Origin: Anthopleura xanthogrammica
Taxonomy: Eukaryota > Cnidaria > Anthozoa > Actiniaria > Actiniidae
Assembly: GCA_964019055.1 (NCBI GenBank)
Contig: OZ025214.1
Location: 3,710,858 to 3,774,857 of the forward strand
Direction: 5' to 3'
Length of the DNA stretch: 64,000 bases
Part shown: positions 14,590-50,800 of the stretch, piece after piece
Numbering within the stretch: position 1 is the first letter of the stretch
Layout: the number at the start of each line of letters is the position of its first letter
Program-made: the position numbers and the translations under genes
The notes under the pieces: model-generated
Database searches by the model: none
What the model saw: only the letters and a program-made list of their open reading frames with translations
What the model was told of the DNA's origin: nothing

Positions 14590-17500
14590 ATGGAAACATA
14601 CTTCACCGCGTCGAGAGGCTTCGTTTCCTCGATGCTTATAATATGGACACTGTCAACGCTACCCAAATCAGAAGGTAACTCAGTTTTGAATAGTTAGCTT
14701 TCTTTGTACTTCACAGGGAAGACGTTTTAGGGCTGTTTGATAGGGAATTTTGTGTTGGGGTCAAAGCTGCGGGTGAAAACGCCACAAACATGGTGACAAG
14801 TGGTAAGTAAGTTGTGAGGAGTACTGCGGCATGCAGCCAGATTACTATGGCTCAGCCGTTGTATCATGAAATAATGTGTTCCTTCCCATAGAAAATGCAA
14901 GATAAAACCAAAAAAATGAAACATCTGTTATTTTTTCTTGCTTTAAGTTTCGTTTTGACGTTCCTTGGTTGTTCCATGAAGTCCATCATCCCAACTACTA
15001 ATTAACTAACTTTAAAAATTATTCTACCGCAAAGCACCGGTAAACACAGAAAAAAAATTAGCAAAGAAAAATATTATTCGTGTTATAGTATTAAAGAAAT
15101 TGTATACTCTACAAATGACCCTCAATCGTGACACAAACGAATAAGTATCATATTTCTTTAAAGAAATCTTATTGCATATCGCACAGATAACTAAGAAAAA
15201 GGTTATACCGTTTTTATTTTTGTGAAATGAAGAGAAAATAGGAGCTACAAAAGCAGATTTTTTCAATCGAAATAATCTCAAAAATCGATAGATTTTCAAG
15301 TTCTAAAATGTCCTAATTCAAAGATCACTTGCGCTCTAATTATTTCGTTACATTGAATGGTTAATGATATATTTTTTCGGTTCCTTATTAATTATTAGCG
15401 AAAGTCAGTGCCGCTCAATTAGTCAGTCGGTTTCACTATTCTTACAGTTCTTTTGTTTACTTTAAAACCGTTAGATCGGTTTACTTTCTTGTTTGTTTTA
15501 TTATTTGCTATGTTGTCAGGACTATATACTAGTTTATGTAACTGAAGCAAAATGCTTGTTGGCTATCTGAGCAGTTCATTGGTCGGTTGTCTGGTCGGTT
15601 TGGAATTTTTGTTTGGGATGTTTGGTCGGATAGTTGCTGCATCAGTCGATTTGTATTGGAATGTTTCGGTTTACTGGTGGGTTGCCTGGTTTGTTTAACT
15701 GGCTGGATGCGGTCGGATACCTCAGTGCTGAGTCAGTTCGTATTGGTACGTAGGCTGGTTGTTTGTCTGGTCGTATGGTTAATGGTTCGTCGGTCGCTCG
15801 GTTGGTCGTCAACTCGGTTGCAGCTGTTTTTGATGTGGCTTAGTAACATAACATTATAACTGGAACGGACTATTTTCCACTCAGTCCTTCTTGATTTCGA
15901 AAGTTTTGTATTTCTCCTGCCTCTTTTCCCAAAACCATGTCTTTTTCCTTCTTTCTATTTTAGGAAGCTGTCGCACACTAAGGATTAGAGGTATCTTCAA
16001 TGGAAAAGCCCTAACCAATCATATTATTCGTACTATCAAACCAGTTGCTGATGCCCATACATGTGCAACAGAATGCTATTTGGAGCCGTTTTGCTTTTCC
16101 TACAACTTTTGTCAAAGATCAAATGAGGCGCCTCGTTGTCAACTGTCTAAATTTGAGCACATTCGTAAAGCAAACGACTTGATAATGAAACCAGGATGTA
16201 CATACTACGGTACAAAGGTAAGTTTTGGCGGGAAAATGACGGGCGCTCGCGCGATTTGTTGATACAAGCCAACTTTAAGATTTTTTGGTCTTGTTCTTGG
16301 TAATCGTAACTGGATTAGTGCATGACTGATCACGTTCTGAACAAATCAGCTTTGGATGACAATCAGCACAATCTATTTATTCCTACAAAAACCTTGTCTA
16401 TATTCACATATAACCTTATCCTCCAACATGGCTGCCGTATGAAAAATGTCCCACCATAAACGCAGTAGAAATCTCCTCAAATTCAGAGATGGAAATGTTT
16501 CATAAACCTTATTTTTCTCGGGGAAAAATCCGAGCTCCCAAAACAAAAAACGGGACGAAAAACAAAAACACAAACACAAAAACACCTAATACCGAATACT
16601 CCTAAACTTTGTTTTGTCTTTCGTTTTTTTTTTTTTTTAGTCTTCGTGTTCAAGTGCACCGTGTCGTAACGGTGCCACATGTCTTGGAGACTTTTATGAT
16701 CAAAATGTTAAGTACAAATGTATTTGTCGCCATGGTTACCATGGTCGAGAATGTCATCGTGATATCGATGAATGCAAAAACAAAAAACACAACTGTCACA
16801 AAAATGCAAAGTGCATTAATATTAGGGGTGGATTCAAATGCAAATGCAAAACCAATTACCATGGCAACGGCACACATTGTGAAGGTAAGTATCACTCGGC
16901 TGACACCACGTGACTAATCACGGATTTTTAGAAAGAAAATTAAAGAATTAAAAAAGAATGAAATTAAGAAAAAATACTAAAATAATAATAATATTTAAGT
17001 CCCATGGATACGGTTAAGTTTAACACAGGAAACCCAAGCTCAATAGGAATCCGTCTTGGAGCGCGCAATAGACCATTTTCGAGATGCGCGAGCGCTTTCA
17101 AAAATATCGCAGGCGCAGACATGAAAGAGAGGCATTTTCGGGCAAGATCACGTACGCTGCCCGAAAATGCCTTGAGATCATGTCTGCGCCTGCGATATTT
17201 TTGAAAGCGCTCGCGCATCTCGAAAATGGTCTATTCACGCCTCTTGGGAATACGCTTAAGGAAACTGACAAAATCATCTTCAAGCTAGGGAATGATAATA
17301 ATCTGAAATGGAGAATCTTTACGTTAATATATTTGACCAGTTCTGATATCAGGATTTAATATCACCAGACATCAATGAATGCACTTTACCTGTGCCACCC
17401 TGTCACGTGAATGCCACGTGTAATAACACTATTGGTGGACACATTTGCACGTGTAAAGCTGGGTTCACTGGAAACGGAAAACACTGTAAAGGTACGATCC

Positions 17501-20500
17501 AGAACTTTTTCGATCAGAGTTACACTCCATTGCCTTCAAACAATTACTTTAAGTCGTGGCATTTGGGTCAGTTTCTATACATTTACTGTATTGTTGACCC
17601 AAATGCCTCGACTTGAAGTAATTGTTTGAAGGCAATGGAGTGTAACTATGATATCTGCTATTATGTAAATATAGTGAATGAATCGTAGTATTATAATTAA
17701 GGCCGATTTACAGGGTCCAACTTTTGCTTACATGCAATCTGCTTACGCCTGACACTTACAACACGAATTGCATGCTTCGTGTAATTGAATCAACCCTACA
17801 ACTTGCTACAACTTTTCTTGTCGTACACAACAGTTGTGAGCAAGTTGTAGGGTTTATTTGCGTGAAGCAACTTGTGTTGTAAGCGTGGGGTAAGCAGATT
17901 GCATGAGACAGTTGTACTAAGCAAAAGTCGTACCGTGTAAATCGGCCTTTACAATAACTGAGAAGAAAGTGCTGCCTTTGTAATTACATCTACAAATAGT
18001 TAGACTTTCAAGTGTTTCGGATAACCACTTTAAATGGAGGTCCCGACTACTCTCCACACTTCATCATCGCGAACAAATATAGGAGGGACGTATAAAAGAG
18101 CCACTGAGGATGTAAAGAAACCCTAGCAGTGACCAACCCCGCCCAGTGCCTACACGTCATACGAACCATCTCTCATAGTTGTAAGCAAAGAGATTATACG
18201 GAGTCATACCCCATAGCCATAAGTATAAAGAAGATTTCGTATGAGTGTGAAAAGTTTTTCATAGTCATACGAATACAAGTGCTCTATTAGTATTCATTCC
18301 AACCAACGCAAGCGATAAGTATATATTAAATCTCAAGTTATATAATCTTATTTTTTAGATATCAATGAATGCTTACCTAAACCTTACGTATGTGGCAAGG
18401 TAAGAGTAAAATGCAACAACACTGTTAGACCAAAAACGAAATGTAGACCAAAGAATTTCACATCAAGTGGATTAAACTCTACAAAAAATACAACGTACGG
18501 CGATCACAATACGACCGGTGTATTGAACTGCACGGAATGTACAATGGACGGCAATCACAACAATGCGACCGGTGTATTGAACTGCACAAGATGTACAATG
18601 GACGGCAATCACAACAATGCGACCGGTGTATTGAACTGCACGAGATGTACAATGGACGGCAATCACGGCAATGCGACCGATGTATTGAACTGCACGAGAT
18701 GTACAATGGACGGCAATCACGACAATGCGACCGGTGTATTGAACTGCACGAGATGTACAATGGACGGCAATCACGACAATGCGACCGGTGTATTGAACTG
18801 CACGAGATGTACAATGGACGGCAATCACAACAATGCCACCGCTGTATTGAACTGCACGAAATGTACAATGGACGGCAATCACGGCAATGCCACCGGTGTA
18901 TTGAACTGCACGAGATGTACAATGGACGGCGATCACAACAATGCGACCGGTGTATTGAACTGCACGAGATGTACAATGTACGGCGATCACAATACGACCG
19001 GTGTATTGAACTGCACGAGATGTACAATGGACGGCGATCACGACAATGCGACCGGTGAATTGAACTGCACGAGATGTACAATGGACGGCAATCACGGCAA
19101 TGCCACGGGTGTATTGAACTGCACGAGATGTACAATGGACGGCGATCACAACAATGCGACCGGTGTATTGAACTGCACGAGATGTACAATGGACGGCGAT
19201 CACAACAATGCGACCGGTGTATTGAACTGCACAAGATGTACAATGTACGGCGATCACAATACGACCGGTGTATTGAACTGCACGAGATGTACAATGGACG
19301 GCAATCACAACAATGCGACCGGTGTATTGAACTGCACGAGATGTACAATGGACGGCGATCACGACAATGCGACCGTTGTATTGAACTGCACGAGATGTAC
19401 AATGGACGGCGATCACGACAATGCGACCGGTGTATTGAACTGCACGAGATGTACAATGGACGGCAATCACAACAATGCGACTGGTGTATTGAACTGCACG
19501 AGATGTACAATGGACGGCGATCACGACAATGCGACCGGTGTATTGAACTGCACGAGATGTACAATGGACGGCGATCACGACAATGCGACCGGTGTATTGA
19601 ACTGCACGAGATGTACAATGGACGGCGATCACGACAATGCGACCGTTGTATTGAACTGCACGAGATGTACAATGGACGGCGATCACGACAATGCAACCGG
19701 TGTATTGAACTGCACGAGATGTACAATGGACGGCAATCACAACAATGCGACTGGTGTATTGAACTGCACGAGATGTACAATGGACGGCGATCACGACAAT
19801 GCGACCGGTGTATTGAACTGCACGAGATGTACAATGGACGGCGATCACGACAATGCGACCGGTGTATTGAACTGCACGAGATGTACAATGGACGGCAATC
19901 ATGGCAATGCGACTGGTGTATTGAACTGCACGAGATGTACAATGGACGGCAATGCGACCGGTGTAATGAACTGCACGAGATGTACAATGGACGGCAATCA
20001 CGACAATGCGACTGGTGTATTGAACTGCACGAGATGTACAATGGACGGCAATCACAACAATGCCACAGGTGTATTGAACTGCACGAGATGTACAATGGAC
20101 GGCAATCACAACAATGCGACTGGTGTATTGAACTGCACGAGATGTACAATGGACGGCAATCACGGCAATGCGACTGGTGTATTGAACTGCACGAGATGTA
20201 CAATGGACGACAATCAAGACAATGTGACTGGTGTATTGAACTGCGCAGAATGTACAATGCATGGCAATCACGGCAATGCCACGGGTGTATTGAACTGCAG
20301 GAGATGTACAATGGACGGCAATCAAGGCAATGTGACTGGTGTATTGAACTGCGCAGAATGTACAATGCATGGCAATCACGGCAATGCCACGGGTGTATTG
20401 AACTGCACGAGATGTACAATGCATGGCAATCACGGCAATGCGACCGGTGTATTGAACTGCACGAGATGTACAATGGACGGCAATCACGACAATGCGACCG

Positions 20501-23500
20501 GTGTATTGAACTGCACGGGATGTACAATGGACGGCAATCACGGCAATGCAATCAGTCTATTGAATTGCACGGGATGTACAGATCACGGTAATGCCCCGGG
20601 TGTATTGAATTGCACGGGATGTACAATGGATGACAATCTCGGCAATGCGACTGCTGTATTGGACCATGTGCATGATAACCTTAGTAACTCCAGTCAAAAC
20701 ATTACAAATGTTGATGATGAGGAAGAGGTGGAATGTGATATCCATGAAGACACCATCAGCTCTAACAACGCGTCCAGCGAAATGTGTGAAGGTATTGCGT
20801 GTCTGTTTATCACATAAACTTCCATTGCAGGCAAGATGACGTAACTTGCAATGACGTCATACAAGGTTTTCATGACGTCATACAAGGTTTTTATACATTT
20901 TCTGACACAACATAGAAGTTCATGGTATGACACCATTCGTTACTGTAACACCAGATGACGTCATAACACCATATGACGTCATAACACATAAAGCATGACG
21001 TCATAACACAAAACATGACGTCAATATTTTGATATTCATTTTTATAATTTCAATGCCTAATAAACTAACGAAACCAATAAAAATCTATTATTTCATGATA
21101 ATCTTACAGAAAACAAGACCTGCTTTGAGTTTTCGCATGACTGTCACGTGTTAGCCGCATGCTATAATGACATTGGTAGTTATCATTGCAAATGCAACAC
21201 CGGTTCCCAAGGCAACGGAAAGAATTGCACAGGTAGATATAAACCCGCAAATATCAAGTTAAGATACCTTTTTTTTAAAGTTACCTTCTAAATGTTTGCT
21301 TTCTTTTCATCAGATATCAATGAATGTGCTTCCAATATCAGCGTTTGCCACAGCAATACAACATGTACAAATACTTTTGGCGGGTATAACTGTACATGCC
21401 TGAACGGTTTCCAGGGAAACGGCACATTCTGTGAAGGTGAGTAATGGTTCCAAGTTAGAATATAAAATTCTAGTCGTCTGTTTCACCTAATCATTAAAAA
21501 GGGTACAAGTGAATGTTTGTCATGTCTTTATTTGCAAAATTATTTGCCAAACCATATTCCTTTCAAATTTAAAATTTTTACTATACTTTTACTTTATTTA
21601 CTATATTTTCAAAACTATCGCCGCAGAAATCGCAGCAAAAGATCGCCGCAAAAATTGGCAGTGTAAATGGGCCTTTACTGATATATGTTGTACTTATATA
21701 TGAACTAATTTGATGCAAAAAATCTCAATTTTTCAAGACATTGATGATTGTAATGATGACAAGCACGGCTGTCACGTGAACGCCACGTGTAGTAATTTTA
21801 TTGGTGGACACATCTGCACGTGTAAGGATGGTTTCCATGGAAATGGCACACAGTGCTACGGTGAGTGTGCACATTTTGCTGCATTATAAAGATAATACTA
21901 CAAAACTTTCTGAACGATGGTGAATTTTGATAAATTAATTTTGTTTACGATTTATGATTTTTAAGACATTGACGAATGTAATTCTAACAAGCATGATTGT
22001 CACGTGAATGCCACGTGCAATAACACTATTGGTGGACACATCTGTACGTGTAAGGATGGTTTCCATGGTAATGGAACACAATGCTTCGGTGAGTATTACA
22101 ATACAATACAATAAACTTTATTTTACGAGGGAAAAATACGTATTAACAGCTATAAAGGTTATCTAACATACGGCCCTCGTATTAACGTTCAGTAATCAAA
22201 TCAAAATTCAAATTGATAAGTAATATGAACTTTTACACTCAATTTTTTTCAAGAAATCGACGAGTGTGCGCGCAATGTTCACAGTTGCCATGCCAACGCA
22301 TCATGTAGAAGCAGCGCTGGTGGGTACACGTGCATGTGCAAACATGGTTTCCAAGGCAATGGAACATTCTGCGAAGGTACGTGGGATCCAACGCTACATG
22401 ATATTACGAAATCAATCAAGTTCGCAATATTCCATATCATACATTACTGACTCTTCTTTTTCAGATATCAACGAATGTCTAACCAATGTGCATGACTGTC
22501 ACGTGAGCGCATCGTGCAATAACACCATTGGTGGATATCAGTGCTCATGCAAATTAGGTCTCTATGGTAACGGCACCTTTTGTCGCGGTTAGTATGTTTC
22601 TATACGTCACGTGATTCATGTGTTTGTGATGTTCTAGCTCCATGTTGGATAAACTGAACGTGACAACATGTCGGCAATGTCTTTTGTTATATCGTTCTCT
22701 CGGAATTCTTTTGAACGTTACCATATTTCATTTTTTTTCTTCGATCTTCCATAAAACTATATTTATATTTTTAAACAGAGCCCGAAACCTGCGATGAACT
22801 GGCCTCTAATATGCCCGAGTAAGTATGTTATAAAACAGAAAACCTTACGACAGTTTGGGACCAAGACTGACGGCGATGCAGTTTTATATATTTTTTTATA
22901 ATTATATTTGCACAGCACATATTTATGTCTATTGCGGTATACGCACCTTACATATTTCTATTTCCATTAGCGAGGCCAAAAGCACACTATACCAAATAAA
23001 ACCCAAGGGGGTGAGGTACAGTGTATTTTGCGTGATGTCGTCAAATGTTGGCTGTGGTTTTGGTACCTGGAAACTAGCAATGAAAATAGACAGCAAATTG
23101 GTAAGTATTAAAATACAATTCTTCTAAGTATAGGCAGGATTACACGGAGCACTTTTCTCTGCAACTTGTCTCAGAACGCTCGGAACGGCGTTGCGACACA
23201 AGTTGCATGGAGCATTGGGGCATGTAACCTACAGTGCAATTTGAAAAATGTTGCGAGACAAGCTGCAGCAATCGTCGATTACGTCTTCGTTGCACCGTGT
23301 TTCAGGTGAGAGATATATCGAAGGTCTCAGTTCTAAGCTCAGCAACTGAATGGTCAATATGTTTTTTGGACAAGCTTTTGGAGTTGACTGAGTTATACGT
23401 GGCATAGAAAATGTATATCATATGTTAAAACTTGTTTATTTAATTTCAGAAAACTTTTCATTACGATTCTCCACTTTGGAACAATCCCACTTCGTTCAAA

Positions 23501-23820
23501 CCCGAAGCTGGTTTGACGGGACTCGATAACAATGAAACAAAAACGCAAGCTTACTGGGGTACTACTATAAAAAGGCTGTGTTTTGGTATGAAATTCGATG
23601 GGGTGCTTCGGTGGAGGACTATTTATTTTAATGTAGCCACTAACACATTATTATATTGGATGAAGGATAGGATCTTGTATACCCATACTGGTTATCATTG
23701 GTGGAAAATGTTACTTCCTTCAACGTCTATATATAGTCATAGATGTCGCAAGTATGTACTGGATGAACGAAGATGATGATGATCATGATGATCATGATCA
23801 TGATGATCATGATGATGATC

Positions 23821-23852
<32 letters not shown>

Positions 23853-24609
23853 CATGATGATCATGATCATCATGATCATCATCATGATCATGATCATCAT
23901 CATCATCATGATCATGATTAAGATTAAACGACGATGATGACGACAACGAAACTATATGATGATAATGATATGATGATGATAATGATAATGATGATGATAC
24001 ATAATGATGATACATGATGATGATGATACATCATGATGATGATACATGATGGTGGTGATACATCATGATGATGATACATGATGGTGGTGATACATGATGA
24101 TGATGATACATGATGATGATGATACATGATGATGATGATACATGATGGTGGTGATGCATGATGATGATGATACATGATGATGATGATACATGATGGTGGT
24201 GATGCATGATGATGATGATACATGATGATGATGATACATGATGATGATGATGGTGACGAATGTAAAGACTAATCATGATCATTATGACGAATATGGTTAA
24301 AAAGACTAATGTAGTGTAATGTAGTATAATTGATAATAATAACGGAAAAACAGTAACTTTTGGTGCCATTAATTTCCCAGGGAAGGCCTCAACTTGAATG
24401 TCAATAACAGAGCGTTAAGGTTGGGGTACTTTGCAAGTAAATACGAATTTGGCACCGGGTGTTTGACTTTTGATTCATATATCGGCTTGGGCCCTAGACT
24501 GGATTATGTACCATCAGATGCACCGGTATGTGGTAACTATGCTCCCAGCGGAGTTACCTCTGGAGCCAGGAAGACCCATGCATTTTGTTACCTTTTAGTA
24601 CAGTCTTAG
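14590..24609 (+). CDS. Gene B: secreted PAN, EGF, 18-aa repeat, fibrinogen-like protein
   Basis: Fifteen exons join in phase: 14590-14674, 15964-16217, 16641-16884, 17369-17491, 18359-20791, 21110-21232, 21314-21436, 21738-21860, 21966-22088, 22254-22376, 22465-22587, 22779-22818, 22971-23100, 23450-23751, 24381-24609. From the Met at 14632 (matching the start in the C family, MLIIWTLSTL) the product is about 1511 residues; the Met at 14590 adds 14. Order: signal peptide 1-15; PAN/apple 15-99 with seven Cys; EGF pair 100-180; EGF 181-221; degenerate EGF from 222; 18-residue repeats 276-987; an acidic tail; six EGF domains (about 1033-1278, mostly calcium-binding type starting DINEC or DIDEC); then a fibrinogen-like C-terminus with GLTGLDNNET and a CGN motif. 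Every EGF exon from 21110 to 22587 is exactly 123 bp with phase 1 at both ends. Likely a secreted or matrix protein. The ligand is unknown. Confidence 0.88.
15560..15850 (+). repeat. GT-rich degenerate repeat in gene B intron 1
   Basis: Many copies of GGTCGGTT, GGTTG and CTGGTCG words without a strict period. The reading frames here are open but simple in composition, so I treat it as low-complexity intron rather than coding. Confidence 0.6.
15964..16217 (+). CDS. Gene B exon 2: PAN/apple domain
   Basis: Acceptor TTTTAG and donor GTAAGT bracket 254 bp. It encodes a Cys-rich domain starting GSCRTLRI and ending CTYYGTK, with seven Cys in the same order as the PAN exons of the C family (SC, TC, EC, FC, FC, RC, GC). 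PAN/apple domains bind protein or carbohydrate ligands. Confidence 0.85.
17067..17235. mobile_element. MITE with AATAGACCATTTTCGAG ends
   Basis: Both ends read AATAGACCATTTTCGAGATG inward and continue through GCGAGCGCTTTC and ATATCGCAGGCG on each arm. Arms are about 55 bp and nearly perfect. In intron 3 of gene B. Confidence 0.82.
17518..17647. mobile_element. Foldback MITE, AGTTACACTCCATTG ends
   Basis: Left arm AGTTACACTCCATTGCCTTC then AAACAATTACTT; the right arm is the complement, ending GGCAATGGAGTGTAACT. It starts 27 bp after the donor of gene B exon 4. A one-sided relative is at about 51408-51440 upstream of the C3 last exon. Confidence 0.78.
17697..17951. mobile_element. Foldback MITE, TTAAGGCCGATTTACA ends
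   Basis: A 255-bp near-palindrome: left TTAAGGCCGATTTACAGGGT with GCAATCTGCTTACG, right CGTAAGCAGATTGCATG-like sequence then GTGTAAATCGGCCTTTA. The right half of a relative lies at 43735-43818. Ends resemble the AAGGCC elements at 481-858. Confidence 0.8.
18359..20791 (+). CDS. Gene B exon 5: 40 tandem 18-residue NCT/CxxC repeats
   Basis: A single 2433-bp exon, open throughout and phase 1 on both sides like its EGF neighbours. It opens as a degenerate EGF (DINECLPKPYVCG), then residues 276-987 are 40 units of 18 residues with consensus VLNCTRCTMDGNHDNATG, coded by a 54-bp unit. Two units are one residue short (18952, 19219) and two are three residues short. By eye 37 units keep N-C-T and 38 keep a second N-x-T, about 75 sequons, and each unit has two Cys spaced CxxC. 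After the array comes an acidic segment (DDEEEVECDIHED). The flanking EGF exons show this strand and frame are used. A secreted, heavily N-glycosylated, disulfide-rich rod or stalk is the simplest reading; this is inference. Confidence 0.88.
18520..20655 (+). repeat. Coding 54-bp minisatellite, 40 units
   Basis: Forty tandem units beginning at each GTATTGAACTGCACG-type start, lengths 54 bp except 51, 51, 45 and 45. Length changes are all multiples of three. Variation concentrates at AAT/GAT and at the AAC/GAC/GGC codon, switching N, D and G at fixed positions. The last ten units are more diverged than the central ones. Confidence 0.95.
20852..21023. promoter_or_regulatory. Cluster of six TGACGTCA (CRE) sites in intron 5 of gene B
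   Basis: Perfect TGACGTCA octamers at 20852, 20873, 20956, 20974, 20996 and 21016, most followed by TAACAC or TACAAGG, plus one near match at about 20836. TGACGTCA is the CREB/ATF binding consensus. The spacing also looks like a decayed minisatellite, so enhancer function is only a possibility. Confidence 0.55.
21616..21678. mobile_element. Half of an AAGGCC-family MITE
   Basis: The segment reads CGCCGCAGAAATCGCAGCAA and ends GGCAGTGTAAATGGGCCTTTA, matching the inner motifs and end of the element at 651-858. I see no matching left end nearby, so it appears to be a solo half. Confidence 0.5.
22971..24609 (+). CDS. Gene B last three exons: fibrinogen-like domain
   Basis: Exons 22971-23100, 23450-23751 and 24381-24609 encode DEAKSTLYQIKPKG, then FGTWKLAMKIDSKL, GLTGLDNNETKTQAYWGT, RLCFGMKFDG, and a final half with YEFGTGCLTFDSY, IGLGPRLDY, CGNYAPSG and YLLVQS before a TAG. 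The order resembles the fibrinogen-related C-terminal region of secreted cnidarian proteins, including some skeletal matrix proteins; that comparison is from memory. The splice at 23751 (phase 2) to 24381 keeps frame, and reading through the donor would stop at 23776. Confidence 0.75.
23772..24255. repeat. GAT/ATC microsatellite and ATACATGATG minisatellite
   Basis: From 23772 to about 23920 the sequence is GATGAT and GATCAT words, which are self-complementary through ATGATCAT. From about 23990 to 24255 it is tandem copies of ATACATGATGATGATG and GGTGGTG variants of 15-18 bp. All of it lies in the intron between the last two fibrinogen-like exons of gene B. Confidence 0.9.
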
Positions 24610-30297: not shown

Positions 30298-33200
30298 ATG
30301 CTTCCCATATTCTTGTGGCTACTCATTCCTGTGTTTTCCCTCTCAGAAGGTAAGACAACCGAACTTTCATTTTGTTCAGTGAATTTTAAAAAGAGCTAAA
30401 AAGTAAACTTTACTGTCTCGTAACGAAAACGATACTTTCGAACATAAGAAGACTTCGAGCTTAATAACACAAAAGGCCAAACTAAACTAAAGACCAGAGC
30501 AACATAATTACCAGAACTCAGCCGGTTTGCAAGCCATAACAGGCGGGAAGAGATAGTATGCATTAGAAAGTGTTGAATAGCCCGCATACATGCACCTGTC
30601 GTTAGGCCATACGAAGGGTTTCACGGTGAAGGTGTTAGATAGACAGCTTTGTGGCGATTTGAGAAATCATTCATGATTCTGTTGTTCACGTCACGCGATT
30701 CATAGTGTAGTTGAAGCAGAAACACTCGCTCAATTTAAGTTAACAGAAAGCTTCATTCGCCTGTGGAAGGATGGGCATCTAACGCAGCTCATAAAAAGTT
30801 ACCCAAAATGGATCAATTCCATCGAGAAAGCAACTTAAAAAAACTTTAATTGCAATATGATAAACGCCTTTTCGGCCACTTCGACCTTCGTCAGTACTAA
30901 CTTATTTACAATACTATGAGAGTGCTAAAAAAAGCCTAAAGAAATAGCACTAGAAAAAGACAAAAGTTAAAAAACAATGTTGCACAAAATGATCAGATCA
31001 TTTGAGAATGTGCTTGCAATTCGATCAGGAAACTGAATCTCGTTCGAAGTTTCTGTTCCAAACAACATATTCAGATTAAGATTTCAGTTTGAGATATATA
31101 TTTATATTTATTACAATTTTTTTCTTCTTCGCTTTTTGCTAACTCATTGAAATACTCTGTCATAGTCAATAGTCATAGTCATAGAATATAGTCAAATAAG
31201 TCGTGGGGGTACGAGGAGCGAAAGGACGTCTGTTTTCTCAGGCTAAAAATATATTCAATATACATTTTCTCTTATTTTTTTTTTAAAGATTTGTTTAAAG
31301 CCAGCTGCTAATCAGTCAATATTTGCCCAAACATGAAACGGCTGATAAAGCTGTCGAAAAAAAGCCATTTTTTACTGAACATGAAAATTAAGTTGATCGG
31401 CTTATTTTTTTTGACAGAACATGAAAGTTAACTAATAAATGACCAAGTAAAAACCGCCAGACGGATCTTTGCTGACGTCATTGTTTACATTTTGGTTCGT
31501 TAGCATAGGAATTTCACTTTTTTTAACCAAATTTATACCAAATCCGTTCTGAATATCGAAAAGAGCATGATAAAAGTAGCTAATTTTTACAAACTTGACA
31601 CATTAAATAGAATTTGGGTGAAGCGGTTTTAAAACTTCTAAATTTTACAGAGAATGTATGGGCTCATTAGTTGTTTTTTTCACCCAGTAATTTGAATGCT
31701 GATATCTCGGAAACTATTGCATGCAAAGAGCTAAAAATTTCGTACATTACTCATATCAATAAGATCTTTTAAGTTTTGGGTTCGGTTTGTAATTTTCTTG
31801 ACTTAAAACCGTATGCTAATGAGCAAAATATTGTAAACAAAGATTCGCCTATATTTTATTGAATCTTAAATAAAATATTCCTAGAAAATGAAATCATGAA
31901 ACCCTTACATTTTTCCACGTTCTTGAATTTTCATTTTGTTCATACCATGATAGGTAATTGTCGCAACTTAAGATTCAAAACGAAACGAGAGAACCAACGG
32001 CTTTTAGCCAATCACACGATTGAAACCATTCAACCAATCAAAGACTTCGAGCAATGTGTGTCAATATGTTACTTAGAATCGCTTTGTTTTGGGGTGAACT
32101 TTTGTGTTGATCAAGACAGCACAGCTACATGTGACCTGACCAACTCAGACTATATTCGAAGTAAAAGAGACTTGGTGGGCGAACCGGGATGTACTTTCTA
32201 CGGATCAGAGGTAAGACAAAGGTTTAATTCCGCTGTTATACGGTCGTCGTCTTCAAATTTCCAAATTGTATCGATACCCTGAAATAACGTCTAGGCTGAC
32301 CTAAGTCAGGTTACGGCTTACTCACAAATCGAACCCTGAAACAACCTCTGGGGTGATCTAAGTCACAGATCAAACCCTGAAACAACCTCTGGGCTGATCA
32401 AAGTCAGGGTTTTATGATATTTCTTGAATATGGGATTCCTGTGTTATGAAACCGCTGGTGAGAGGCGAGTGTACTTCGCTACGCTACACTTGATTCCCAA
32501 TTCGTACACAGTATAGATGTAGATTGAGTTTTTTTGTGTCGTTTAGACTGCATGTTCCAGCGAACCCTGCCAAAATAACGCCACATGTGAAGGAGACTTC
32601 GACTATGCTCCCGTCCCGTACAAATGTATCTGTCCCGCGGGATACTCGGGACAAGACTGCGAGAAGGACATCGATGAATGCACTGCCGCTGGCATGAACG
32701 ACTGTCACGAGAACGCAACATGCACTAACTATCATGGAGGGTACGAATGCCAGTGTAAAGCTGGATTCCATGGCAACGGAAAAGATTGCAATGGTGAGTC
32801 ACTTGAGACGTTTAAGAAATTTTGAAATTTCTAAAATACAGAGAATATGCATGTGTGGCTTGACGTGGCACCACACATTTCTCAGTCTCAGTCTGTAATT
32901 TTGGCGGTGTTTGAATTAAATAAGAAGGGGTAACTTTTTATGGAAACTTAATTAAATTAGTTTTTTAGTTGTTTCAGAGTTCGATAAAATGTTGAACTTT
33001 TCTTTTCTTTTTCCCCTTCAGTGTGCAATGGCAGTGCTCCCCTGGGTATGGAAGATGGCAATATCCCTGACGATAGCATCACTGCTTCGTCCATGTGGAA
33101 TCAAAAACACTCACCACCACGTGCCAGACTCAATATTGCACTAGTGGGCGATTATAGGGGAGCGTGGGTAGCTTATTACAACGACGGCTTACCGTGGTTA

Positions 33201-34591: not shown

Positions 34592-37500
34592 GGTAACCTA
34601 TCCAGATAGATAGCTTGGTCATATCATGCACGACCAAGCAGCATTGAGCCCTGTATTTGTGGCTACTGAGAGCATGTCTTCCATATTTCTTGTACAGCTG
34701 AACACAGGGGGACCAATCAGGGGGTCAGTGAAAAATCAAACTTTCCACTTTTCCACCTCAAAATTATGTGTTGGAAATCAATATGCTATCGAAAACAATC
34801 AAGAAAATCGAGTTTTAGAGTGAATATCGACTTGCAAAAAAAAATCTCAAAATTCCTGTTTGATGTCCATACATTGCCTTATAATTCGCTTCGTGGATGC
34901 GGGAAGGCTAAGCTGAACAAAATTTCGAATATCTCTGGCTGTACGTAAGCTAGAAGCCTAAAGTAAAGAGTTTCAACGACTTTCAACCTCTGGTAGGCTA
35001 TCCAGATAGATAGCTTGGTCATATCATGCACGACTAAGCTAGATTGAGCCCTGTATTTGTGACTGCTGAGAGCATGTCTTCCATATTTCTTGTACAGCTG
35101 GACACAGGGGGACCAATCAGGGGGTCAGTAAAAAATCAACCTTTCCACTTTTCCACCTCAAAATTACCTGTTGGAAATCAATATGCTATCGAAAACAATC
35201 AAGAAAATCGAGTTTTAGAGTGAATATCGACTTGCAAAAAAAAATCTCAAAATTCCTGTTTGATGTCCATACATTGCCTTATAATTCGCTTCGTGGATGC
35301 GGGAAGGCTAAGCTGAACAAAATTTCGAATATCTCTGGCTGTACGTAAGCTAGAAGCCTAAAGTAAAGAGTTTCAACGACTTTCAACCTCTGGTAGGCTA
35401 TCCAGATAGATAGCTTGGTCATATCATGCACGACTAAGCTAGATTGAGCCCTGTATTTGTGACTGCTGAGAGCATGTCTTCCATATTTCTTGTACAGCTG
35501 GACACAGGGGGACCAATCAGGGGGTCAGTGAAAAATCAAACTTTCCACTTTTCCACCTCAAAATTATGTGTTGGAATTCAATATGCTATCGAAAACAATC
35601 AAGAAAATCGAGTTTTAGAGTGAATATCGAATTGCAAAAAAAAATCTCAAAATTCCTGTTTGATGTCCATACATTGCCTTATAATTCGCTTCGTGGATGC
35701 GGAAAGGCTAAGCTGAACAAAATTTCGAATATCTCTGGCTGTACGTAAGCTAGAAGCCTAAAGTAAAGAGTTTCAACGACTTTCAACCTCTGGTAAGCTA
35801 TCCAGATAGATAGCTTGGTCATATCATGCACGACCAAGCTAGATTGAGCCCTGTATTTGTGACTGCTGAGAGCATGTCTTCCATATTTCTTGTACAGCTG
35901 GACACAGGGGGACCAATCAGGGGGTCAGTGAAAAATCAAACTTTCCACTTTTCCACCTCAAAATTACCTGTTGGAAATCAATATGCTATCGAAAACAATC
36001 AAGAAAATCGAGTTTTAGAGTGAATATCGACTTGCAAAAAAAAATCTCAAAATTCCTGTTTGATGTCCATACATTGCCTTATAATTCGCTTCGTGGATGC
36101 GGGAAGGCTAAGCTGAACAAAATTTCGAATATCTCTGGCTGTACGTAAGCTAGAAGCCTAAAGTAAAGAGTTTCAACGACTTTCAACCTCTGGTAGGCTA
36201 TCCAGATAGATAGCTTGGTCATATCATGCACGACCAAGCTAGATTGAGCCCTGTATTTGTGACTGCTGAGAGCATGTCTTCCATATTTCTTGTACAGCTG
36301 GACACAGGGGGACCAATCAGGGGGTCAGTGAAAAATCAAACTTTCCACTTTTCCACCTCAAAATTACCTGTTGGAAATCAATATGCTATCGAAAACAATC
36401 AAGAAAATCGAGTTTTAGAGTGAATATCGACTTGCAAAAAAAAATCTCAAAATTCCTGTTTGATGTCCATACATTGCCTTATAATTCGCTTCGTGGATGC
36501 GGGAAGGCTAAGCTGAAGAAAATGTCAAATATCTCTGACTGTACGTAAGTTAGAAGCTTAAAGTAAAGAGTTTCAACGACTTTCAACCTCTGGTAGGCTA
36601 TCCAGATAGATAGCTTGGTCATATCATGCACGACCAAGAAGGATTGAGCCCTGTATTTATGGCTGCTGAGAGCATGTCTTCCATATTTCATGTATAGCTG
36701 GACACAGGGGGACCAATCAGGGGGTCAGTGAAAAATCAAACTTCCCACTTTTCCACCTCAAAATTACCTGTTGGAAATCAATATGCTATCGAAAACAATC
36801 AAGAAAATCGAGTTTTAGAGTGAATATCGACTTGCAAAAAAAAATCTGAAAATTCCTGTTTGATGTCCATACATTGCCTCATAATTCGCTTCGTGGATGC
36901 GGGAAGGCTAAGCTGAAGAAAATGTCAAATATCTCTGACTGTACGTAAGTTAGAAGCTTAAAGTAAAGAGTTTCAACGACTTTCAACCTCTGGTAGGCTA
37001 TCCAGATAGATAGCTTGGTCATATCATGCACGACCAAGAAGGATTGAGCCCTGTATTTATGGCTGCTGAGAGCATGTCTTCCATATTTCATGTATAGCTG
37101 GACACAGGGGGACCAATCAGGGGGTCAGTGAAAAATCAAACTTCCCACTTTTCCACCTCAAAATTACCTGTTGGAAATCAATATGCTATCGAAAACAATC
37201 AAGAAAATCGAGTTTTAGAGTGAATATCGACTTGCAAAAAAAAATCTGAAAATTCCTGTTTGATGTCCATACATTGCCTCATAATTCGCTTCGTGGATGC
37301 GGGAAGGCTAAGCTCAACAAAATTTCAAATATCTCTGGCTGTACGTAAGCTAGAAACGTGAGGTAAAGAGTTTCAACGACTTTCAACCTCTGGTAAGCTA
37401 TCCAGATAGATAGCTTGGTCATATCATGCACGACCAAGCTAGATTGAACCCTGTATTTGTGACTGCTGAGAGCATGTCTTCCATATTTCTTGTACAGCTG

Positions 37501-40500
37501 GACACAGGGGGACCAATCAGGGGGTCAATGAAAAACCAAACTTTCCACTTTTCCACCTCAAAATTACCTGTTGGAAATCAATATGCTATCGAACACAATC
37601 AAGAAAATCGAGTTTTACACTGAATATCGACTTGTACAAAAAATCTCAAAATTCCTGTTTGATGTCCATACATTGCCTTATAATTCGCTTCGTGGATGCG
37701 GAAAGGCTAAGCTCAACAAAATTTCGAATATCTTTGGCTGTACGTAAGCTAGAAACGTGAGGTAAAGAGTTTCAACGACTTTCAACCTCTGGTAAGCTAT
37801 CCAGATAGATAGCTTGGTCATATCATGCACGACCAAGCTAGATTGAACCCTGTATTTGTGACTGCTGAGAGCATGTCTTCCATATTTCTTGTACAGCTGG
37901 ACACAGGGGGACCAATCAGGGGGTCAATGAAAAACCAAACTTTCCACTTTTCCACCTCAAAATTACCTGTTGGAAATCAATATGCTATCGAACACAATCA
38001 AGAAAATCGAGTTTTACACTGAATATCGACTTGTACAAAAAATCTCAAAATTCCTGTTTGATGTCCATACATTGCCTTATAATTCGCTTCGTGGATGCGG
38101 GAAGGCTAAGCTGAACAAAATTTCGAATATCTCTGGCTGTACGTAAGCTAGAAGCCTAAAGTAAAGAGTTTCAACGACTTTCAACCTCTGGTAGGCTATC
38201 CAGATAGATAGCTTGGTCATATCATGCACGACTAAGCTAGATTGAGCCCTGTATTTGTGACTGCTGAGAGCATGTCTTCCATATTTCTTGTACAGCTGGA
38301 CACAGGGGGACCAATCAGGGGGTCAGTGAAAAATCAAACTTTCCACTTTTCCACCTCAAAATTACCTGTTGGAAATCAATATGCTATCGAAAACAATCAA
38401 GAAAATCGAGTTTTAGAGTGAATATCGAATTGCAAAAAAAAATCTGAAAATTCCTGTTTGATGTCCATACATTGCCTTATAATTCGCTTCGTGGATGCGG
38501 GAAGGCTAAGCTGAAGAAAATGTCAAATATCTCTGACTGTACGTAAGTTAGAAGCTTAAAGTAAAGAGTTTCAACGACTTTCAACCTCTGGTAGGCTATC
38601 CAGATAGATAGCTTGGTCATATCATGCACGACCAAGAAGGATTGAGCCCTGTATTTATGGCTGCTGAGAGCATGTCTTCCATATTTCATGTATAGCTGGA
38701 CACAGGGGGACCAATCAGGGGGTCAGTGAAAAATCAAACTTCCCACTTTTCCACCTCAAAATTACCTGTTGGAAATCAATATGCTATCGAAAACAATCAA
38801 GAAAATCGAGTTTTAGAGTGAATATCGACTTGCAAAAAAAAATCTGAAAATTCCTGTTTGATGTCCATACATTGCCTCATAATTCGCTTCGTGGATGCGG
38901 GAAGGCTAAGCTCAACAAAATTTCAAATATCTCTGGCTGTACGTAAGCTAGAAACGTGAGGTAAAGAGTTTCAACGACTTTCAACCTCTGGTAAGCTATC
39001 CAGATAGATAGCTTGGTCATATCATGCACGACCAAGCTAGATTGAACCCTGTATTTGTGACTGCTGAGAGCATGTCTTCCATATTTCTTGTACAGCTGGA
39101 CACAGGGGGACCAATCAGGGGGTCAATGAAAAACCAAACTTTCCACTTTTCCACCTCAAAATTACCTGTTGGAAATCAATATGCTATCGAAAACAATCAA
39201 GAAAATCGAGTTTTAGAGTGAATATCGACTTGCAAAAAAAAATCTGAAAATTCCTGTTTGATGTCCATACATTGCCTCATAATTCGCTTCGTGGATGCGG
39301 GAAGGCTAAGCTCAACAAAATTTCAAATATCTCTGGCTGTACGTAAGCTAGAAACGTGAGGTAAAGAGTTTCAACGACTTTCAACCTCTGGTAAGCTATC
39401 CAGATAGATAGCTTGGTCATATCATGCACGACCAAGCTAGATTGAACCCTGTATTTGTGACTGCTGAGAGCATGTCTTCCATATTTCTTGTACAGCTGGA
39501 CACAGGGGGACCAATCAGGGGGTCAATGAAAAACCAAACTTCCCACTTTTCCACCTCAAAATTACGTGTTGGAAATCAATATGCTATCGAACACAATCAA
39601 GAAAATCGAGTTTTACACTGAATATCGACTTGTACAAAAAATCTCAAAATTCCTGTTTGATGTCCATACATTGCCTTATAATTCGCTTCGTGGATGCGGA
39701 AAGGCTAAGCTCAACAAAATTTCGAATATCTTTGGCTGTACGTAAGCTAGAAACGTGAGGTAAAGAGTTTCAACGACTTTCAACCTCTGGTAAGCTATCC
39801 AGATAGATAGCTTGGTCATATCATGCACGACCAAGCTAGATTGAGCCCTGTATTTGTGACTGCTGAGAGCATGTCTTCCATATTTCTTGTACAGCTGGAC
39901 ACAGGGGGACCAATCAGGGGGTCAGTGAAAAATCAAACTTTCCACTTTTCCACCTCAAAATTACCTGTTGGAAATCAATATGCTATCGAAAACAATCAAG
40001 AAAATCGAGTTTTAGAGTGAATATCGACTTGCAAAAAAAAATCTCAAAATTCCTGTTTGATGTCCATACATTGCCTTATAATTCGCTTCGTGGATGCGGG
40101 AAGGCTAAGCTGAACAAAATTTCGAATATCTCTGGCTGTACGTAAGCTAGAAGCCTAAAGTAAAGAGTTTCAACGACTTTCAACCTCTGGTAGGCTATCC
40201 AGATAGATAGCTTGGTCATATCATGCACGACTAAGCTAGATTGAGCCCTGTATTTGTGACTGCTGAGAGCATGTCTTCCATATTTCTTGTACAGCTGGAC
40301 ACAGGGGGACCAATCAGGGGGTCAGTGAAAAATCAAACTTTCCACTTTTCCACCTCAAAATTACCTGTTGGAAATCAATATGCTATCGAAAACAATCAAG
40401 AAAATCGAGTTTTAGAGTGAATATCGAATTGCAAAAAAAAATCTGAAAATTCCTGTTTGATGTCCATACATTGCCTTATAATTCGCTTCGTGGATGCGGG

Positions 40501-43500
40501 AAGGCTAAGCTGAAGAAAATGTCAAATATCTCTGACTGTACGTAAGTTAGAAGCTTAAAGTAAAGAGTTTCAACGACTTTCAACCTCTGGTAGGCTATCC
40601 AGATAGATAGCTTGGTCATATCATGCACGACCAAGAAGGATTGAGCCCTGTATTTATGGCTGCTGAGAGCATGTCTTCCATATTTCATGTATAGCTGGAC
40701 ACAGGGGGACCAATCAGGGGGTCAGTGAAAAATCAAACTTCCCACTTTTCCACCTCAAAATTACCTGTTGGAAATCAATATGCTATCGAAAACAATCAAG
40801 AAAATCGAGTTTTAGAGTGAATATCGACTTGCAAAAAAAAATCTGAAAATTCCTGTTTGATGTCCATACATTGCCTCATAATTCGCTTCGTGGATGCGGG
40901 AAGGCTAAGCTCAACAAAATTTCAAATATCTCTGGCTGTACGTAAGCTAGAAACGTGAGGTAAAGAGTTTCAACGACTTTCAACCTCTGGTAAGCTATCC
41001 AGATAGATAGCTTGGTCATATCATGCACGACCAAGCTAGATTGAACCCTGTATTTGTGACTGCTGAGAGCATGTCTTCCATATTTCTTGTACAGCTGGAC
41101 ACAGGGGGACCAATCAGGGGGTCAATGAAAAACCAAACTTTCCACTTTTCCACCTCAAAATTACCTGTTGGAAATCAATATGCTATCGAACACAATCAAG
41201 AAAATCGAGTTTTACACTGAATATCGACTTGTACAAAAAATCTCAAAATTCCTGTTTGATGTCCATACATTGCCTTATAATTCGCTTCGTGGATGCGGAA
41301 AGGCTAAGCTCAACAAAATTTCGAATATCTTTGGCTGTACGTAAGCTAGAAACGTGAGGTAAAGAGTTTCAACGACTTTCAACCTCTGGTAAGCTATCCA
41401 GATAGATAGCTTGGTCATATCATGCACGACCAAGCTAGATTGAACCCTGTATTTGTGACTGCTGAGAGCATGTCTTCCATATTTCTTGTACAGCTGGACA
41501 CAGGGGGACCAATCAGGGGGTCAATGAAAAACCAAACTTTCCACTTTTCCACCTCAAAATTACCTGTTGGAAATCAATATGCTATCGAACACAATCAAGA
41601 AAATCGAGTTTTACACTGAATATCGACTTGTACAAAAAATCTCAAAATTCCTGTTTGATGTCCATACATTGCCTTATAATTCGCTTCGTGGATGCGGAAA
41701 GGCTAAGCTCAACAAAATTTCGAATATCTTTGGCTGTACCTAAGCTAGAAGCGTAAGGTAAAGAGTTTCAACGACTTTAAACCTCTGGTAAGCTATCCAG
41801 ATAGATAGCTTGGTCATATCATGCACGACCAAGCAGGGTTGAGCCCTGTATTTGTGACTGCTGAGAGCATGTCTTCCATATTTCTTGTACAGCTGGACAC
41901 AGGGGGACCAATCAGGGGGTCAGTGAAAAATCAAACTTTCCACTTTTCCACCTCAAAATTACGTGTTGGAAATCAATATGCTATCGAAAACAATCAAGAA
42001 AATCGAGTTTTAGAGTGAATATCGACTTGCAAAAAAAAATCTGAAAATTCCTGTTTGATGTCCATACATTGCCTTATAATTCGCTTCGTGGATGCGGGAA
42101 GGCTAAGCTGAATTCGAAGAAAATGTCAAATATCTCTGACTGTACGTAAGCTAGAAGCTTAATGTAAAGAGTTTCAACGACTTTAAACCTCTGGTAGACT
42201 ATCCAGATCGATAGCTTGGTCATATCATGCACGACCAAGAAGGATTGAGCCCTGTATTTGTGGCTGCTGAGAGCATGTCTTCCATATTTCCTGTACAGCT
42301 GGACACAGGGGGACAATTCAGGGGGTCAGTGAAAAATCAAACTTTCCACTTTTCCACCTCAAAATTACCTGTTGGAAATCAATATGCTATCGAAAACAAT
42401 CAAGAAAATCGAGTTTTAGAGTGAATATCGACTTGCAAAAAAAAATCTGAAAATTCCTGTTTGATGTCCATACATTGCCTTATAATTCGCTTCGTGGATG
42501 CGGGAAGTTTAAGCTCAACAAAATTTCAAATATCTTTGGCTGTACGTAAGCTAGAAGGGTAAGGTAAAGAGTTTCAACGACTTTCAACCTCTGGTAAGCT
42601 ATCCAGATAGATAGCTTGGTCATATCATGCACGACCAAGAAGGATTGAGCCCTGTATTTGTGGCTGCTGAGAGCATGTTTTCCATATTTCTTGTACAGCT
42701 GGACACAGGGGGACCAATCAGGGGGACAGTGAAAAATCAAACTTTCCACTTTTCCACCTCAAAATTACCTGTTGGAAATCAATATGCTATCGAAAACAAT
42801 CAAGAAAATCGAGTTTTAGAGTGAATATCGACTTGTAAAAAAAAATCAAAATTCCTGTTTGATGTCCATACATTGCCTTATAATTCGCTTCGTGGATGCG
42901 GGAAGGCTAAGCTCAACAAAATTTCAAATATCTTTGGCTGTACGTAAGCTAAAAGCCTAAGGTAAAGAGTTTGAACGACTTTCAAACTCTGGTAAGCTAT
43001 CCAGATAGATAGCTTGGTCATATCATGCACGACCAAGCTAGATTGAGCCCTGTATTTCTGACTGCTGAGAGCATGTCTTCCATATTTCTTTTACAGCTGG
43101 ACACAGGGGGACCAATCAGGGGGTCAGTGAAAAATCAAACTTTCCACTTTTCCACCTCAAAATTACCTGTTGGAAATCAATATGCTATCGAAAACAATCA
43201 AGAAAATCGAGTTTTAGAGTGAATATCGACTTGTAAAAAAAAATCAAAATTCCTGTTTGATGTCCATACATTGCCTTATAATTCGCTTCGTGGATGCGGG
43301 AAGGCTAAGCTGAACAAAATTTCAAATATCTTTGGCTGTACGTAAGCTAGAAGCGTAAGGTAAAGAGTTTCAACGACTTTCAACCTCTCGTAAGCTATGC
43401 AGATAGATAGCTTGGTCATATCATGCACGACCAAGCTAGATTGAGCCCTGTATTTGTGACTGCTGAGAGCATGTCTTCCATATTTCTTGTACAGCTGGAC

Positions 43501-43625
43501 ACAGGGGGACCAATCAGGGGGTCAGTGAAAAATCAAACTTCCCACTTTTCCACCTCAAAATTACCTGTTGGAAATCAATATGCTATCGAAAACAATCAAG
43601 AAAATCGAGTTTTAGAGTGAATATG
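34592..43625. repeat. Satellite array: 23 units of about 400 bp
   Basis: Head-to-tail units, each marked by ATGCACGAC (34626, 35026, 35426, 35826, 36226, 36626 and so on to 43423). Period is 398-406 bp and the last unit is only about half. Units fall into at least three types. A has GACTAAGC/GACCAAGC and AGCCTAAAG. B has AAGAAGGATTGAGCC, TTTATGGC and CATGTATAGC. C has GATTGAACCC, GGTCAATGAAAAACC and AAACGTGAGG. Short open frames recur, but B units carry a stop in the plus frame, so I do not call a gene. The array sits between the C2 promoter and the C2 F5/8C exon. Confidence 0.95.
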
Positions 43626-47840: not shown

Positions 47841-50800
47841 ATGCTTCCCATATTCTTTTGGCTACTCATTCCTGTGTTTTCCTTCTCAGAAGGTAAGACA
47901 ACTAAACTTTCATTTTGTTCAGTGAATTTTAAAAAGAGCTAAAAAAGAGACTTTACTGTCTCGTAACGAAAATGATCCTTAAACAATATTATTTTATTAA
48001 TAATACTGAAACATAAGAAGACTTCGAGCTTAATAACACAAAAGGCCACACTAAACTAAAGACCAGAGCAACATAATTACCAGAACTCAGCCGGTTTGCA
48101 AGCCATAACAGGCGGGAAGAGATAGCATGCATTAGAAAGTGTTGAATAACCCGCATACATGCACCTGTCGTTAGGCCATACGAAGGGTTTCACGGTGAAG
48201 GTGTTAGACCGACAACTATGTGGCGATTTGAGCAGTGATCATTCATGATTCTGTTGTTCACGTCATGCGATTCATAGTGTAGTTGAAGCAGAAACACTCG
48301 CTCAATTTACGACGAAGCTTCATTAAAAGTCGTCTATGGAAGGATGGGCGTCGAAGGCAGCTCACACAAAAATTACCCAAAATGGATCAATTCGATCGAG
48401 AAAGCAACTTAAAAAACTTTAATTGCATTATATGGTAAAAATTTTTGCCACTTCGAGCTTCGTCAGTACTACATTATTTACAATACTATGAGAGTGCTAA
48501 AAAAAGGCTAAAGTAATAGCACTAGAAAAAGACAAAAGTCAAAAAACAATGTTTCACAAAATGATCAGATCATTTGACAATGTGCTTGCAATTCGATCAG
48601 GAAACTGAATCTCGTTCGAAGTTCCTGTTCGAAACAACATATTCAGATTAATATTTCTCCGATTAAATGAGTCATACAAGAGAGGTCTTGTATAATTATT
48701 AAGTAATTAGTGTAGGTATCTATATACTGCCGGCTCAAATCTAAAAAAACTTTGACAGTTTGAGATATATTTTTATATTTATTACAATTGTTTTCTTCTT
48801 CGCTTTTTGCTAACTCATTGAAATACTCCGTCTGTCATAGTCAATAGTCATAGTCATAGAATATAGTCAAATAAGTCGTGGGGGAACGAGGAACGAAAGG
48901 ACGTCTGTTTTTTCAGGCTAAAAATACAGTAAAAACCCGCAATTAAAAACCTAGTGATTAAGAACCTGTTAGGCTAAGAATTCCCATCATAACTTTATGC
49001 ATATTTTATACAAACAATAGACTGCACCAATATTCTACCAGCAATAAGCACCTTTTCTTCCTAATGAAGATTAGAATCCTTTTTATGATCCAACATATCC
49101 TGATTTCCTAGTAAACACCAATTATATAAGAACCTGTCTAGGCTAACTTGGAAAAATGCATGTTCTTAAATGCGGGTTTGTACTGTATATTTAATATACA
49201 TTTTCTCTTATCTTTTTTAACGATTTGTTTAAAGCCAGCTGCTAATCAGTCAATATTTGCCCAAACATGGAACGGCTGATAAAGCTGTCGAAAAAAAGCC
49301 ATTTTTTACTGAACACGAAAAATAAGTTGATCGACTTATTTTTTTTGACAGAACATGAAAATTACCTAATAAATGACCAAGTAAAATCCGCCAGACGGAT
49401 CTTTGCTGACGTCATTGTTTACATTTTGCTTCGTTAGCATTTATACCAAATCCGTTCTGAATATCGAAAAAACATAATACAATTAGCTTACTTTTAAAAG
49501 CTTGACACATAAAATAGATTTTGCGTGAAGCGGTTTTAAAACTTCTAAATTTTACAGAGAATGTATGGGCTCATTAGTTTTTTTTCCACCAAGTAATTTG
49601 AATGCTGATATCTCGGAAACTATTGCATGCAAAGAGCTAAAAATTTCGTACATTACTCATATCAATAAGATCTTTTAAGTTTTGGGTTCGGTTTGTAATT
49701 TTCTTGACTTAAAACCGTATGCTAATGAGCAAAATAATGTAAACAAAGATTCGCCTATATTTTATTGAATCTTAAATGAAATATTCCTAAAAAATAAAAT
49801 CATGAAACCTTTATATTTTTACACGTTCTTGAATTTTCATTTTGTTCATACCATGATAGGTAATTGTCGCAACTTAAGATTCAAAACGAAAAGAGAGAAC
49901 CAACGGCTTTTAGCCAATCACACGATTGAAACCATTCAACCAATCAAAGACTTCGAGCAATGTGTGTCAATATGTTACTTAGAATCGCTGTGTTTTGGGG
50001 TGAACTTTTGTGTTGATGAAGACAGCACACCTACATGTGAGCTGACCAACTCAGACCATATTCGAAGTAAAAGAGACTTGGTGGACGAACCGGGATGTAC
50101 TTTCTACGGATCAGAGGTAAGACAAAGGTTTAATTCCGCTGTTATACGGTCGTCTAGGCTGATCTAAGTCAGGGCACGGCTAACTCACAAATCGAACCCT
50201 GAAACGACCTTTTGGCTGATCTAAGTCAGAGCATGGGTAACTCACAAATCGAACCCTGAAAGGACCTCTTGGCTGATCTAAGTCAGGGCATGGCTAACTC
50301 ACAAATCGAATCCTGAAACGACCTCTTGGCTGATCTAAGTCAGAGCATGGCTAACTCACAAATCGAATCCTAAAACGACCTCTTGGCTGATCTAAGTCAG
50401 TGCATGGCTAACTCACAAATCGAATCCTGAAACGACCTCTTGGCTGATCTAAGTCAGGGCATGGCTTACTCACAAATCGAATCCTGAAACGACCTCTTGG
50501 CTGATCTAAGTCAGGGCATGGCTAACTCACAAATCGAATCCTGAAACGACCTCTTGGCTGATCTAAGTCAGGGCATGGCTAACTCACAGATGGAACCCTA
50601 AAACAACCTATTGGCTTATAAAAGTCAGGGTATCATGATATTTCTTGAATATGGGATTCCTGTGTTGAAACCGCTGGTGAGAGGCGAGTGTACACTTGAT
50701 TCTCTACTCGTACACAGTATAGATGTAGATTGAGTTTTTTGTGTCGTTTAGACTGCATGTTCCAGTGAACCCTGCCAAAATAACGCCACATGTGAAGGAG

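Follow-up and report, generated by a model that had tools for sequence, protein, structure and literature searches.

What is a long array of nearly identical 18-residue units, each with two cysteines and as a rule two potential N-glycosylation sites (sequons), doing inside a single exon of a PAN/EGF gene? The question is raised by a 64,000-nucleotide stretch of the genome of Anthopleura xanthogrammica (the window, to which coordinates refer unless a contig is named), in which such an array occupies 18520..20655 on the + strand. To judge by comparison with its counterpart in Actinia tenebrosa, the array is a coding minisatellite, or variable number tandem repeat (VNTR), with 40 units in the former species and 6 in the latter. 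As to its role, we regard the chances as about even that it forms a length-variable, N-glycan-dense and disulfide-clipped spacer, the glycans, the bonds and the function all being inferred from the sequence.

Forty units inside a probable split EGF exon

The array exon (18359..20791, + strand) runs for 2433 bp without a stop, between an acceptor (...ttttttag before 18359) and a donor (gtattg after 20791). Within it, Tandem Repeats Finder (TRF) reports a period of 54 with 40.4 copies and 91% matches (18506-20661), and the reading frame yields 40 units, amounting to 712 codons (18520-20655), with the consensus VLNCTRCTMDGNHDNATG. Thirty-six of the units are 54 bp long, two are 51 bp and two are 45 bp, and hence the length changes are multiples of three. 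The CxxC is present in every unit (40/40), the NCT sequon in 37/40 (being absent from units 33-35) and the second, tail sequon in 38/40 (being absent from units 38 and 39), with both sequons occurring together in 35/40. An earlier reading of the window from its letters (the original prediction) had proposed a 40-unit array in one exon, two sequons and one CxxC in nearly every unit, and triplet indels within a 2433-bp open frame, all of which are borne out. The sequons of the 40 units number 75 (37+38) and those of the whole exon 84; the 76 seen in the array slice as against the 19.3 expected from composition are a description only and not an independent test, because one unit was copied.

At the DNA level, 27 distinct versions of the unit occur among the 40. 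The codons of C4, C7, T8, M9 and N15 are identical across all 36 full-length units, and T17 is Thr in 35 of these 36 by way of four different codons. A 200-bp segment recurs unchanged at positions 19426 and 19696, an offset of 270 bp (five units), which is evidence of block duplication and of turnover of units. The tandem unit is confined to one locus of the genome (289.8 Mb in 125 contigs were searched): all matches to a three-unit protein query (22/22) lie inside the array exon, as do 36/37 matches to a strict 21-base DNA pattern, the other being isolated on contig C4.

Inspection of the sequence around the array points to a split EGF domain, delineated by the splice sites, the frame and six non-array cysteines found in both species, with the array sitting between the fourth and fifth of these. 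The N-terminal part of the host exon (18359..18468, + strand; DINECLPKPYVCGKV), which is common to the Actinia protein, carries cysteines 1-4 of the six. It is followed by a pre-array unit 0 (18469..18519), identified by alignment to the unit consensus (the alignment beats 2000/2000 shuffles), in which NSTKN stands at the position of NCTRC, such that there are no cysteines while the sequons are present. On the far side lie a possible degenerate unit (20656..20709), also devoid of cysteines and with sequons NSS and NIT, whose alignment to the consensus is weak (P=0.008 and 0.012 by shuffling), and an acidic stretch with the end of the host EGF exon (20710..20791), which bears the last two cysteines (VEC, MCE) and is again common to Actinia.

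Calcium-binding EGF domains have six cysteines paired 1-3, 2-4 and 5-6 and a DINEC-type start. The host exon resembles this fibrillin type in opening with DINEC in both species and in having 123-bp EGF exons as neighbors; it differs in being split by the array between cysteines 4 and 5, and in a Pfam score that lies below the cut-off of 27 (E 0.039, 14.6 bits, for a query without the array). The two halves of the host EGF have no other genome match at E<=0.001; the N-terminal part has one further match at E 0.18, on contig C1. An origin of the unit itself from an EGF domain, prompted by a by-eye likeness to the EGF C4-C6 stretch, was set aside as unsupported by 24 shuffle tests (16 protein, 8 DNA): two of these gave P=0.036, both against EGF7 and in different registers, and the others gave >=0.09.

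The Actinia ortholog and the paired cysteines

A protein-database search of the array, as recommended with the original prediction, was made twice against a library of 5.8 billion proteins, the candidates sharing most words being scored (7989 and 3421) within length limits of 453-1440 aa and 839-2669 aa. Each search returned a single hit, which in both cases was a "fibrillin-2-like" protein of Actinia tenebrosa (P0001, 910 aa). Outside the array exon, 549/711 aligned residues are identical (77%; 182/235 + 367/476, with 2 and 4 gap columns excluded), and by this flank identity P0001 is the apparent ortholog; the order of parts, the exon and the unit (NCxxCTM plus sequons) are common to both. 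With P0001 as query, 1034 proteins at E<=1e-30 were found among 6212 candidates, and the next best of the 120 matches listed has 666 bits versus 2181. The array is known here from two species, a number that reflects the proteomes searched as well as biology.

The earlier statement that no described family has this unit holds in that Pfam and NCBIfam (the latter built for prokaryotes) contain no credible family for it, and fails in that an annotated relative exists, namely the Actinia ortholog with 6 units. A literature search found no paper describing the unit by title or opening of abstract, and the word "fibrillin" is absent from the available part of the main text of the Actinia tenebrosa mucin paper (PMC9080433). 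Viral contigs gave one pattern match and no relative by tblastn. Several matches were rejected: the array passes the whole-protein cut-offs of Pfam DUF5061 and DUF5790 while no single stretch passes, and these were taken as repeat artefacts; the PDB sequence match 9e5c_0q (E 1.3e-14) aligns over a repeat that is rich in Ala, Thr and Glu and has no cysteines.

The exon of P0001 holds 6 CxxC units, as compared with 40 in Anthopleura xanthogrammica. The motif N-C-x-x-C-T is kept in both species, with positions 6, 10 and 12-15 differing: the Actinia units have CTGC or CTEC in contrast to CTRC here, and H rather than D at position 10. Two sequons are found in 5/6 of the Actinia units, the last unit having none. 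In two units I-A-T stands at the position of the N-A-T found otherwise, with an N-H-S starting three residues upstream, such that these units too have two sequons. Accounting for the cysteines of the exon gives 86 (80+6) here and 18 (12+6) in Actinia, i.e., six non-array cysteines in both, and on these totals neither species has a lone-Cys unit. Such a pattern suggests joint action of the two cysteines in each unit, perhaps through a bond between them. Further, the unit preceding the array lacks both cysteines yet bears sequons in both species (NSTKN here, NSTES in Actinia).

Selection, structure and competing explanations

On the spacer reading, a coding minisatellite inside one EGF exon of a secreted PAN/EGF protein has changed greatly in length, with slippage and unequal crossing-over altering the number of units while leaving the frame unbroken and no lone cysteine behind. 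Each unit would carry N-glycans on both NCT and the tail sequon, a disulfide would form locally within its CxxC, and successive units would make up an extended spacer that keeps the N-terminal PAN/EGF head away from the distal EGF and C-terminal part, in mucus or matrix. The original prediction had offered, as guesses, a glycan-coated rigid stalk or a thiol/metal-binding polymer; a glycan-coated spacer remains the best guess, both the rigidity of a stalk and metal binding being conjecture. In mammalian cells, according to the accessible parts of two reports, STT3A skips a subset of NCT/S sites, and Cys-proximal sites can need STT3B with MagT1/TUSC3 (PMC4750078, PMC8645230). By analogy with mammals, the NCT sites with their internal cysteine may rely on an oxidoreductase-type oligosaccharyltransferase; were the mammalian rule to hold in anemones, each unit would offer one easy and one redox-sensitive site. 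A bolder proposal, which we consider doubtful, is that the array corresponds to a mucin domain but is built on N-glycans, up to ~75 of them per 712 residues, and has the CxxC placed at N-C-T in every unit, so that redox state and an oxidoreductase-type oligosaccharyltransferase would set site filling. If true, one gene would give rise to a graded, redox-controlled sugar coat, with a length evolving by slippage.

Most long coding repeats that bear glycans are O-glycosylated and rich in Pro, Thr and Ser. Like the PTS (Pro/Thr/Ser)/VNTR domains of mucins, the array is a coding tandem repeat that is length-variable and dense in potential glycosylation sites, in a protein that is probably secreted; unlike them, it has N-glycan sequons in place of Pro/Thr/Ser for O-glycans, two cysteines per unit and almost no Pro or Ser. 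The repeat region of a mucin PTS domain is defined, in the available part of PMC9080433, by a Thr+Ser content above 40% and ~5% Pro. In composition (16.6% Thr, 0.1% Ser, 0.1% Pro) the array lies outside this definition, while sharing the variability in length (40 vs 6). Secreted glycoproteins with a coding VNTR are already known, and what is new is the unit combining N-sequons with CxxC. Occurring in 6 versus 40 copies between flanks that are 77% identical, this N-sequon/paired-Cys repeat offers a natural experiment on the evolution of N-glycan density, of disulfide formation and of spacer length, for which the flanks of the gene act as a built-in control.

The main rival to a functional spacer is a minisatellite that evolves neutrally and that a loop of the host EGF tolerates, its unit serving no specific function, its copy number being subject to drift and its sequons persisting through homogenization of the copies; we treat this as a tentative explanation that deserves to be taken seriously. 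Among the 36 full-length units, 9 of 28 distinct variants are synonymous as against 7.0 expected (P=0.23), and the wrong-frame controls give 12 against 7.2 (P=0.02) and 5 against 7.3. The excess in the coding frame is non-significant and smaller than that in one of the wrong frames, so that this test lends selection no support; the nearness of the variants to the neutral expectation and the larger synonymous excess in a wrong frame count in favor of the neutral rival. In the six sequon and Cys codons, 5 of the distinct variants are synonymous and 3 nonsynonymous, versus 4 and 17 in the other twelve (Fisher P=0.067), and 2.6% of all 6-codon sets show as few amino-acid changes, a split that is suggestive only, the set having been picked after viewing the codon table. 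The open frame is likewise weak evidence for coding or selection. On the antisense strand, two of three frames stay open, for 694 and 690 codons, and on the + strand one further frame does so for 203 and 510 codons with a single stop between, because the stop-free 54-bp unit keeps such frames open. The original prediction had concluded from the open frame and triplet indels that coding is maintained; they do not show selection, and the equally open antisense frames sit well with neutrality, as do the exact block duplication and the more than sixfold difference in length between the relatives.

Besides the synonymous-variant test, several points weigh against the proposed spacer: 5/40 units here lack one sequon and 1/6 in Actinia lacks both, and invariant residues can arise by homogenization. 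Additionally, the two N-H-S units of Actinia may descend from one duplicated event, and as the Actinia units were located via CxxC, the presence of both cysteines in 6/6 partly reflects how the units were chosen, and the total number of cysteines is the fairer measure. The comparison with Actinia is at the protein level. At that level, pure neutrality is countered by the lack of a lone cysteine in either species, by the Cys-free border unit that still bears sequons in both, and by the retention of N-C-x-x-C-T while positions 6, 10 and 12-15 differ; on general grounds, 80 cysteines are also a costly load in a secreted protein. A further alternative would pair the cysteines between neighboring units, the second with the first of the next, or between chains, resulting in a cross-linked gel or filament and no spacer. 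Two cysteines per unit do allow chain pairing, and the host is rich in EGF modules (Pfam on P0001), which are common in matrix proteins. However, one cysteine would remain at each end of the array, and the Cys-free border unit fits local pairing at least as well, which leaves this an unlikely arrangement.

Still less probable is an ordered all-beta solenoid with 18 residues per turn, e.g., an ice-binding or adhesive rod. Insect antifreeze repeats are 12 residues long and built on Cys and Thr; the array is likewise short in unit, regular and endowed with both residues, and differs in its 18-residue unit and in that a solenoid is not indicated. An AlphaFold2 model of eight units is all-beta (pLDDT 73.2, pTM 0.62), and Pfam gives a weak, sub-cut-off match to Bactofilin, both of which would fit a solenoid. 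Against it, the antisense control for the same eight stretches is also all-beta and scores higher (pLDDT 97.4, pTM 0.88), and a Foldseek search with the first model returned 166 matches at E<=10, the best of which, at 0.063 (PDB), falls short of E<=0.001. The available part of PMC11795689 reports that AlphaFold2 yields such models for random repeats as well. Because the antisense control scores higher, the score is uninformative for the array and the model was dropped as evidence; given its greater content of Val and Ile, the control speaks against the score and not against the fold itself. The antisense translation of array stretches (18520-20556, - strand) is a natural case of AlphaFold2 over-confidence on repeats, and the practical trap is that the program places it above the real one.

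Host gene, paralogs and neighboring repeats

The array exon belongs to an open gene model on the + strand (14590..24609), whose 15 exons join through their splice sites and phases into 1525 codons with no internal stop. The model is based on splice sites, frame and matches to P0001, and coding status rests on it and on the annotated ortholog. The order of parts is a signal-like start, PAN, EGF domains, the array exon, six further EGF exons and a four-exon C-terminal domain. The first exon (14590..14674; donor gtaact) encodes a putative signal-peptide-like N-terminus, found by tblastn with residues 1-46 of P0001 (52% identity), in an alignment extending beyond the exon end at 14674. The PAN exon (15964..16217) matches Pfam PAN_1 (E 7.8e-06, 26.1 bits against a cut-off of 21.4), whereas Pfam at E<=1 does not list PAN_1 for P0001 despite ~73-75% identity in this region. 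Two EGF domains follow (16641..16884; Pfam EGF 1.4e-13, EGF_CA 5e-12), and a third occupies a single 123 bp exon (17369..17491) with 88% identity to P0001. Downstream of the array, splice sites and frame define six EGF exons of 123 bp apiece (21110-21232, 21314-21436, 21738-21860, 21966-22088, 22254-22376 and 22465-22587; overall 21110..22587) and the four exons of the C-terminal domain (22779..24609), all on the + strand.

The putative N-terminus and the EGF/PAN domains suggest that the host is a secreted PAN/EGF protein. The earlier label of a PAN/EGF/fibrinogen-like secreted protein is thus retained for the PAN and EGF domains and the hydrophobic N-terminus, and its fibrinogen-like element is unsupported, Pfam on the joined 233 C-terminal residues giving 0 families at E<=1. 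The C-terminal domain (22779-24609) has matches at E<=0.001 in 71 genome stretches, three of which are the gene itself, and is by these matches a member of a large unnamed domain family.

Further genes of the PAN/EGF family lie in tandem within the window, with paralogous exons at 31935-32789, 49841-50994, 56408-57249, 62584-62829 and 63902-64000; tblastn (E<=1e-3) and pattern search detected in these paralogs no copy of the unit and nothing matching the ends of the array exon. A 400-bp satellite (34592-43624; 22.6 copies, 96% matches) spans 9 kb between two of the paralogs. Related minisatellites with a 41- or 57-bp unit and a motif shared by eye occur at 32322-32406, 50153-50630 and 56718-56875, probably in introns between the PAN and EGF exons of three paralogs. 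Elsewhere in the genome, contig C2 (G000:C2:4227668-4315234) has at least 38 matches spaced ~2.28 kb apart, each within an open frame of 353-354 codons, and each of the three frames read there (L029, C2:4262000-4271500) contains eight EGF domains, the three being nearly identical. This region represents a tandem array of genes of recent origin, or else one giant EGF gene made up of hundreds of modules.

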